A stretch of 42,198 nt of DNA from NCBI GenBank assembly GCA_001779925.1, contig MFEK01000006.1, forward strand, positions 38,201 to 80,398, given 5' to 3'. The translations under genes were made by a program, and so were the position numbers. The stretch is from Candidatus Doudnabacteria bacterium RIFCSPHIGHO2_01_FULL_46_14 (GTDB lineage Bacteria; Patescibacteriota; Doudnabacteria; UBA920; 2-01-FULL-46-14). This document shows positions 1,128 through 2,498 of the stretch, piece by piece. Numbering within the stretch: the stretch's first letter is position 1; every line of letters begins with the position of its first letter. The notes beneath the pieces were generated by a model. The model was given only the letters and a program-made list of their open reading frames with translations, searched no databases and was not told the origin of the DNA.

Positions 1128-1733
1128 GTGAAAACGACAGTCTTTGTTATTGCCCTAGTATTTTGTTCCTGCGTTGCTCCAAAGCGGTCGGTTCAGCCGC
1201 GGACCATGACAACCCTTGTCGAGGTCATTAGGCTGCAGCGGCCGGGGGAAGTTCCGTCGGTATCCAAGCTGTTCGAGAAGACGACTTTGCGCGGTATGGT
1301 AGTTGGCAGAATCTCAGTCGTACCCAAAGACAGCGCCAGATGTCCGGATGAGCGCTACATCGAGCAGGATCTTGAGAAGCGTCTCATTGCTGCCGGAGCC
1401 AGGAAAGCCAAGATATCAGACAAAAAAGAAAAGGTGACGGATTTTTCGATTCACCTAACTTGTTTTTATCAAGGCAATAGCTTTCAAGAACTCTATGTGC
1501 TTGTCGATATGGAGAAGCCAAATATGGGCGGCACAGGGAGCGCTTACGGCAAAACATTCAAGGAAGCAGTCAGTGAAGCGCTCGATGAGGTGATGGAGTC
1601 CATCGTCCCAGAGTACAATGAATCGCTTCATCCTAAAATCGGGGTTCGCCCCGATTTTTTTGCCAAAAAAATCTCCCCAACACTGGTTAGGGAGATTTTT
1701 TTGAAGCTGTTTAGAAATTTGCTTTTGAGGTAA
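1128..1733 (+). CDS. Putative lipoprotein of unknown function, aberrant 3' end
   Basis: GTG 1128 is preceded by AGGAGG (1118-1123), so it is preferred to the TTG at 1101. The product begins with a short basic N-region, a hydrophobic stretch and FCSC, which resembles a lipobox, so it may be lipid-anchored. The body (about residues 30-170) has no motif I recognise. The last 35 or so codons are odd: the frame passes through two strong intrinsic terminators (1635-1661 and 1665-1702) and stops only at 1731-1733, inside a foldback repeat. A transcript ended at the first terminator would have no stop codon. A different frame meets TGA at 1619, so a small indel near the 3' end of the gene, or an assembly error, is likely. 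The true protein may be about 165 residues. Confidence 0.6.
   Translation: MKTTVFVIALVFCSCVAPKRSVQPRTMTTLVEVIRLQRPGEVPSVSKLFEKTTLRGMVVGRISVVPKDSARCPDERYIEQDLEKRLIAAGARKAKISDKKEKVTDFSIHLTCFYQGNSFQELYVLVDMEKPNMGGTGSAYGKTFKEAVSEALDEVMESIVPEYNESLHPKIGVRPDFFAKKISPTLVREIFLKLFRNLLLR
1635..1661 (+). terminator. Intrinsic terminator
   Basis: AAAATCGGGG, a TTCG tetraloop, then CCCCGAT and a run of T. It is a textbook Rho-independent terminator, yet it lies inside the annotated frame of the preceding gene. Confidence 0.85.
1665..1702. terminator. Bidirectional intrinsic terminator
   Basis: AAAAAAATCTCCC and GGGAGATTTTTTT form a stem flanked by A and T runs, so it can act on both strands. On the minus strand it is the first strong terminator downstream of the RNase P RNA gene. 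Confidence 0.75.
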
Positions 1734-1863
1734 AATTTCAGAATTTTGAGCGAAAAAACTTAAACATACGGAAACGATGTGATTGCATCGTTGAGTACTG
1801 TTGAAGATTTTGCAGCCAACAATTCTGAGATTTTAGCTAAATATGAAATTTTTAAACAGCTTC
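1703..1863. repeat. Imperfect long palindrome (MITE-like foldback element)
   Basis: The sequence from 1703 aligns with the reverse complement of the sequence ending at 1863 over nearly its whole length. The ends are GAAGCTGTTTA and its complement. Inner matches include TAAAAT and TCAGAATT, and the tip is a short perfect hairpin (AACGATG/CATCGTT, 1771-1790). The arms are roughly 75 nt and mostly identical. No reading frame or clear target duplication was seen. It could be a miniature inverted-repeat element or the 3' trailer of the RNase P RNA transcript. Confidence 0.6.
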
Positions 1864-1866
1864 GAA

Positions 1867-2462
1867 GCCCAAAGCAAGTCTATAAGCCGAATTCTGTGTT
1901 TGTGTAGCTATCTATCTTGGCTGTCTGTTGCCAGTCAGCTCATGCACCCTACCTAATTTGGGTTTGCACTCAAGTAAGAGTTTAGCCGTTTCACTCCCTA
2001 CGTTACCGTAAGGACTTCCCGACCTGAGTCGGGATCCCTCGGCTTTCGCCTCAGGACGTCTCTGTTCGCATCTCGCGCCTTACGGCGGACGGGAATTACC
2101 CGCTACCCTTGAAATTGATCACTCATATGAGGTTATCAATCCCGGAGTGTTCGGACTTTCCTCCCCGTGAGATAGCTATATACTATTTTTGATTCGATTT
2201 TTTAAATATCGCTTTCCCCAAGCTGACTTTAAATATTTTTCTCGAATCAATGCGTCTGTCTTCGACTCGCAAGCTTCGTAATAAACTAGCTTTAATGGTC
2301 GCCGATTTTTAGTGCTGAGAGTGTCACCTTTTTGATGGTTTAAAAGCCTTTCACGCAGATCGCTAGTTGATCCCGTGTAAAGGTTGTTATCCTTCAAACT
2401 TCTCAACACATAGACGTAATACATAAGTATCTCACGGGGCAGCTACCCGACTTACTTTGGGC
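1867..2462 (-). ncRNA. rnpB: RNase P RNA with a protein gene inserted in helix P3
   Basis: RNase P RNA is the catalytic subunit that trims tRNA 5' leaders. Hallmarks on the minus strand are GAGGAAAGTCCGAACACTCC near 2160 and ACAGAATTCGGCTTATAG near 1890, the two conserved strands of the P4 core. P1 is GCCCAAAGTAAGTC (2462-2449) with GACTTGCTTTGGGC (1880-1867), fully paired with one G-U. P2 is GTAGCT (2446-2441) with AGCTAC (1909-1904). P3 is a perfect 12-bp helix between 2439-2428 and 2174-2163. The loop of P3 holds the whole GIY-YIG gene (2424-2176). Without that 249-nt gene the RNA is 347 nt, normal for a bacterial A-type RNA. A consensus promoter places the transcript start at 2462, the first base of P1, which independently fixes the 5' end upstream of the insert. 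Confidence 0.92.
2176..2424 (-). CDS. GIY-YIG nuclease encoded in the P3 loop of RNase P RNA
   Basis: An 82-residue single-domain GIY-YIG protein of the UPF0213/YhbQ-like type common in Patescibacteria. The motif is read as VYVLRS (residues 4-9) and LYTGST (15-20), followed by the catalytic Arg in DLRERL, His/Asn in NHQ, and the metal-binding Glu in LIREKYLKS. The C-terminus is basic. All key residues look intact, so it is probably an active endonuclease. The ATG lies 3 nt after the 5' strand of P3 and the TAG ends 1 nt before its 3' strand, so the gene fills the loop exactly. There is no Shine-Dalgarno and no promoter of its own, so it must be translated from the RNase P precursor. It could be a homing-type selfish gene or a stand-alone repair nuclease captured there. 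Confidence 0.88.
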   Translation of the reverse strand: MYYVYVLRSLKDNNLYTGSTSDLRERLLNHQKGDTLSTKNRRPLKLVYYEACESKTDALIREKYLKSAWGKRYLKNRIKNSI

Positions 2463-2469
2463 AATGAGA

Positions 2470-2498
2470 ATCTTATCACTCTTGAATTTGTTTGTCAA
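2470..2498 (-). promoter_or_regulatory. Consensus promoter of the RNase P RNA gene
   Basis: TTGACA (2498-2493), 17-base spacer, then TAAGAT (2475-2470) preceded by TG. Seven bases further is 2462, the first base of helix P1. Confidence 0.85.

Follow-up and report, generated by a model that had tools for sequence, protein, structure and literature searches.

The DNA examined here (the window) is a 42,198-nucleotide stretch of contig MFEK01000006.1 (positions 38,201 to 80,398, forward strand) of the assembly GCA_001779925.1 from Candidatus Doudnabacteria bacterium RIFCSPHIGHO2_01_FULL_46_14. Its minus strand carries a class A RNase P RNA gene (rnpB), and an ORF coding for a GIY-YIG nuclease lies wholly within the loop of helix P3, in sense with rnpB, so that helices P1, P2 and P3 all close over it (Table 1). 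The covariance model RF00010 matches the minus strand at 2191-1866 with a score of 81.4 bits (E 5e-25), and the P4 core motifs and the rest of the core are present in order. This score is below the gathering threshold of 100 bits, whereas rnpB of the sister species (genome G001), which has no insert, scores 118.2; we attribute the shortfall to the insert, which the model cannot span and which forces the P1-P3 part of the model onto the end of the ORF. Both the RF00010 match and the P4 motif are unique in the 1.08-Mb genome. In the full-length fold each P3 pair has a probability of 0.98-1.0, and the RNA as a whole has a z-score of -10.6.

Table 1. Features of the interrupted rnpB locus (positions in the window)
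Feature	Position	Strand	Sequence	Remarks
rnpB, class A RNase P RNA, interrupted in P3	1867..2462	-		596 nt; about 347 nt without the ORF
P1 5' strand	2449..2462	-	GCCCAAAGTAAGTC	pairs with 1867-1880, 14 bp with one G-U
P1 3' strand	1867..1880	-	GACTTGCTTTGGGC	
P2 5' strand	2441..2446	-	GTAGCT	pairs with 1904-1909, 6 bp
P2 3' strand	1904..1909	-	AGCTAC	
P3 5' strand; left terminal inverted repeat of the element	2428..2439	-	CCCCGTGAGATA	perfect 12-bp pairing
P3 3' strand; right terminal inverted repeat of the element	2163..2174	-	TATCTCACGGGG	
GIY-YIG nuclease ORF	2176..2424	-		82 aa; PF01541, E 2e-17
Segment absent from rnpB of G001	2168..2434	-		267 nt in place of 11 nt
P4 5' core motif	2147..2163	-	GAGGAAAGTCCGAACAC	
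P4 3' core motif	1883..1897	-	ACAGAATTCGGCTTA	
Sigma70-type promoter	2470..2498	-	TTGACA (2498-2493), 17 nt, TAAGAT (2475-2470)	-10 box ends 7 nt before P1

The preliminary description of this locus, as an RNase P RNA gene with a complete nuclease gene in the P3 loop, is therefore supported. It did not recognise, however, that the P3 stem itself belongs to the insert, or that the arrangement recurs in other lineages. The ORF is not a chance reading frame, as its domain match scores 63.6 bits against a cut-off of 22.6 and it is under constraint, with dN/dS of 0.12 between the window and L082 (one of two GTDB-derived records, L082 and L090, with the same arrangement). The presumed catalytic residues (YVY, YxG, Arg26 and Glu62) are invariant in the alignment of these proteins. 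The protein also has similarity, although weak, to UPF0213 structures (1zg2, E 1e-5). No Rfam intron match was found in the locus, and a self-splicing intron was rejected.

Comparison with G001 proved informative in defining the insert. The reductase and sugar-transferase genes around rnpB are conserved between the two species, and rnpB of G001 aligns to window 1867-2167 (84% identity) and 2435-2478 (91%). The inserted segment thus includes most of both P3 arms and not only the ORF. The whole rnpB unit (window 1655-2498), with downstream terminator-like sequence, is inverted relative to the conserved flanking genes in comparison with G001 and two further relatives, G002 and G003.

The arrangement is not unique to this genome. 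We measured the distance from P1 to P4 in rnpB genes of relatives, and looked for GIY-YIG ORFs next to P4 motifs in 380 genomes of the phylum and in 80 loci from GTDB genomes. Seven further rnpB genes with a GIY-YIG ORF in the P3 loop were found, in genomes G035, G029, G025, G071 and G245 and in the records L082 and L090. This count is a lower bound; in the window's class at least 4 of 43 genomes with a P4 motif have the insert. In G029 the ORF has a frameshift and an early stop but the stem is kept. In genome G015, P3 has a CCCCACACCATTTCC stem like some of the element repeats described below but only a 67-nt loop without an ORF, and it is possible that this is a decayed or ORF-less copy. In seven other relatives (G027, G028, G031, G034, G039, G048 and G052) neither RF00010 nor a P4 pattern search gave a convincing rnpB, which could reflect assembly gaps or very diverged or interrupted genes.

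Over the eight insert-bearing genes, 97.6% of cells in P1-P3 form standard pairs and 25 of 31 pairs have changes on both sides, while slid controls reach only 35-44% paired. The helix arms were picked by complementarity, which favours the structure, P3 most of all, so that part of this excess is built in, but the variety of pair types is not. In all eight genes the ORF is in sense and a sigma70-like -10 box ends 4-7 nt before P1. The weak RF00010 score could be taken to mean that the window holds a non-functional rnpB copy or an assembly chimera. This is very improbable, as no second rnpB was found in a genome that is 99% complete, the same arrangement is present in eight independent assemblies, compensatory changes and a promoter are seen, and the rnpB sequence is 84-91% identical to that of G001 on the two sides of the insert.

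Of particular interest is the origin of the P3 stem. Relatives of the ORF outside rnpB are usually enclosed by an inverted repeat, which was found at 68% of 102 free-standing loci against 4% of 422 control ORFs in the same loci, although about a third of GIY-YIG loci show none. The repeat arms belong to a few classes, such as ACCCCGTTAGAGATA, ACCCCGTGAGATA, ACCCTGTTAAATAA and CCCCCACACCAATT, in CPR and other phyla. The P3 arms of the window are of the ACCCCGTGAGATA class, which is seen also around the free-standing elements L093 and L095 and, with one base changed, L098. The P3 stem therefore came with the insert. The boundaries of the element are sharp: genome G375 has two copies that are 89% identical over 312 nt, from repeat to repeat, with unrelated flanks, and the rnpB elements of G245 and G035 match, respectively, an element in a 16S-tRNA-Ile spacer (L209) and an intergenic element (L215), again only from repeat to repeat. 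Interestingly, in two loci (L128 1720-2000 and L216 near 1249) the terminal G-run of the element doubles as the 5' end of a tRNA acceptor stem, the same logic as its use in P3. A separate GIY-YIG clade (L055, L071 and L110, also L072) sits just upstream of intact tRNA genes and behind a truncated tRNA 5' half whose D-loop is split by a CCTGCCCGCCATCGC...GCGGGCGGG hairpin, and is perhaps a relative that targets the tRNA D-loop. In L082 an ORF-less CCCGTGAGAT...ATCTCACGGG hairpin, matching its P3 repeat, lies in the region of P16/P17 of rnpB, and L090 has a related hairpin there.

Thirteen of 78 repeat-bearing free-standing elements have an exact 4-nt direct repeat immediately outside the inverted repeats, against 0-3 off register and a mean of 1.1 for shuffled flanks, which is suggestive of target-site duplication. 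There was no signal for wider duplications of 5-6 nt or for palindromic target sites, and no 4-nt duplication is visible at the rnpB sites, so that entry into P3 may have gone by replacement or recombination rather than by simple insertion. ORF-less palindromes with CCCCGTKAGA/TCTMACGGGG arms occur 42 times in 13 of the 380 genomes, with none for the reversed pattern. Eleven of these 13 genomes hold the GIY-YIG gene, compared with 189 of 380 overall (Fisher p 0.01). No ORF-less palindrome with the exact pattern was found in the window's own genome. One relative was found in viral contigs, and only distant relatives of under 45% identity in plasmids.

In a tree of 110 GIY-YIG proteins the rnpB copies fall into two clades. 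The first contains the window, L082 and L090 with free-standing L098 nested among them (99/95), and the second contains G035, G029, G025, G071 and G245, with free-standing L128 and L156 as sisters (99/83). The rnpB label needs 3 changes on this tree, and never 1 in 200 bootstraps. At least two entries into P3 are needed, and one ancient vertical insertion is rejected by the tree and by the empty site in the sister species. Values of dN/dS for the other pairs compared were 0.35 (L082-L090) and 0.09 (G035-G025). An alternative is pure homing, in which the protein cuts only ORF-less rnpB alleles and the element spreads by repair copying without transposition to other sites. P3 borders the highly conserved P4 sequence, and the copies of the first clade share identical 12-nt arms although synonymous sites are near saturation, both of which are in keeping with such a model. 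It nevertheless seems doubtful, because the closest relatives lie in unrelated sites with the same ends, one genome holds two copies, 4-nt direct repeats flank some elements, and rnpB was entered at least twice.

It could also be suggested that the nuclease has been domesticated and is kept in rnpB because co-expression with RNase P helps the host, for example in RNA processing. The low dN/dS and constant sense orientation are in keeping with this, as is the location of many related GIY-YIG genes next to tRNA genes; 10 of 26 GIY-YIG loci in the window's class have a tRNA gene within 250 nt, far above a rough expectation of 4%, which assumes about 45 tRNA genes per genome. However, the patchy distribution of the insert, its absence from the sister species, the frameshifted ORF in G029 beside a retained stem, and the presence of related ORFs in unrelated sites make domestication unlikely.

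The explanation that we favour, and consider likely, is that a minimal mobile element of about 280-330 bp, made of one GIY-YIG nuclease ORF between terminal inverted repeats with CCCC...GGGG ends, has entered the P3 hairpin of the only rnpB gene found. Its inverted repeat replaced and lengthened the native CCCCG/CGGGG stem, so that the interrupted RNA can still fold its P1-P4 core with the ORF looped out, and one promoter just before P1 transcribes the RNase P RNA and the nuclease ORF together. Purifying selection on the ORF, its decay in one genome, its absence in close relatives and the repeated entry into rnpB suggest that it persists as a selfish passenger. It is inferred that the nuclease makes the DNA break that mobilises the element, and that P3 is chosen because the base of the native helix, for example CCCCGAC...GTCGGGG in G001, resembles the ends of the element, which may also explain why no duplication is seen there. 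In the absence of RNA data, the function of the interrupted RNA is likewise inferred from conservation, and it may work either with the loop retained or after RNase III clips the stem. In the second case, which is a variant of the same explanation at the RNA level, the ORF would be freed as an mRNA and the RNase P RNA would work as two pieces held by P1 and P2, as with the intervening sequences of 23S rRNA, for which cleavage is established (PMC11270868). The P3 stems of 12-22 bp in all eight genes and the presence of an RNase III gene are compatible with this possibility, but it remains tentative, as 12 bp is probably short for double-sided RNase III cleavage and P1 of L090 is only about 8 bp, so that a fragmented RNA would be weakly held.

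GIY-YIG ORFs in non-intron insertions of CPR 16S and 23S rRNA genes, most of the insertions lying at the tops or bases of stem-loops, have been described by Tsurumaki et al. 2024 (PMC11270868), who regarded GIY-YIG as outside spread by homing and do not mention rnpB or RNase P. Here the host is rnpB, and inverted repeats, possible target-site duplications and solo palindromes are found. The 23S rRNA intervening sequences also cap a helix with complementary ends, sometimes encode a protein and are tolerated in a single-copy essential RNA, but their protein is of the 23S_rRNA_IVP family. As with REP palindromes and REP-associated tyrosine transposases (RAYT), one small nuclease-type gene is associated with palindromes that also occur alone, although RAYTs appear to be HUH/Y1 enzymes, whereas here the only protein is a GIY-YIG nuclease and its ORF lies between the two arms. 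Insertion sequences share terminal inverted repeats and multiple copies, and possibly short target-site duplications, but no transposase family was found here in Pfam or NCBIfam scans (no DDE, HUH, tyrosine or serine transposase) and the total length is only about 300 bp. Diverged CPR RNase P RNAs that fall below model thresholds and have extended or missing helices are known (PMC8172020), with no ORF-bearing P3 described in the parts of that report consulted. Among the open-licence papers searched we found no report of an ORF in P3 or of these inverted repeats. The interrupted rnpB is thus a new host for a known kind of insertion, while the repeat-bounded element looks like a new type. It is somewhat more likely than not that it represents a previously undescribed class of minimal bacterial mobile element, with ORF-less satellite palindromes and 4-nt target-site duplications, which spreads across several phyla and settles in structured RNA genes by making its own inverted repeat replace a host RNA helix.

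An essential, usually single-copy ribozyme that carries a protein gene inside one of its helices shows how far RNase P RNA can be interrupted, and makes the role of the peripheral P3 helix testable. It also warns that RNase P RNA and other RNAs may be missed by covariance models because of such inserts. The repeat structure suggests why parasites can live in structured RNA, namely that they bring a stem that takes over a host helix, and it offers a mechanism for the unexplained GIY-YIG insertions in CPR rRNA genes.
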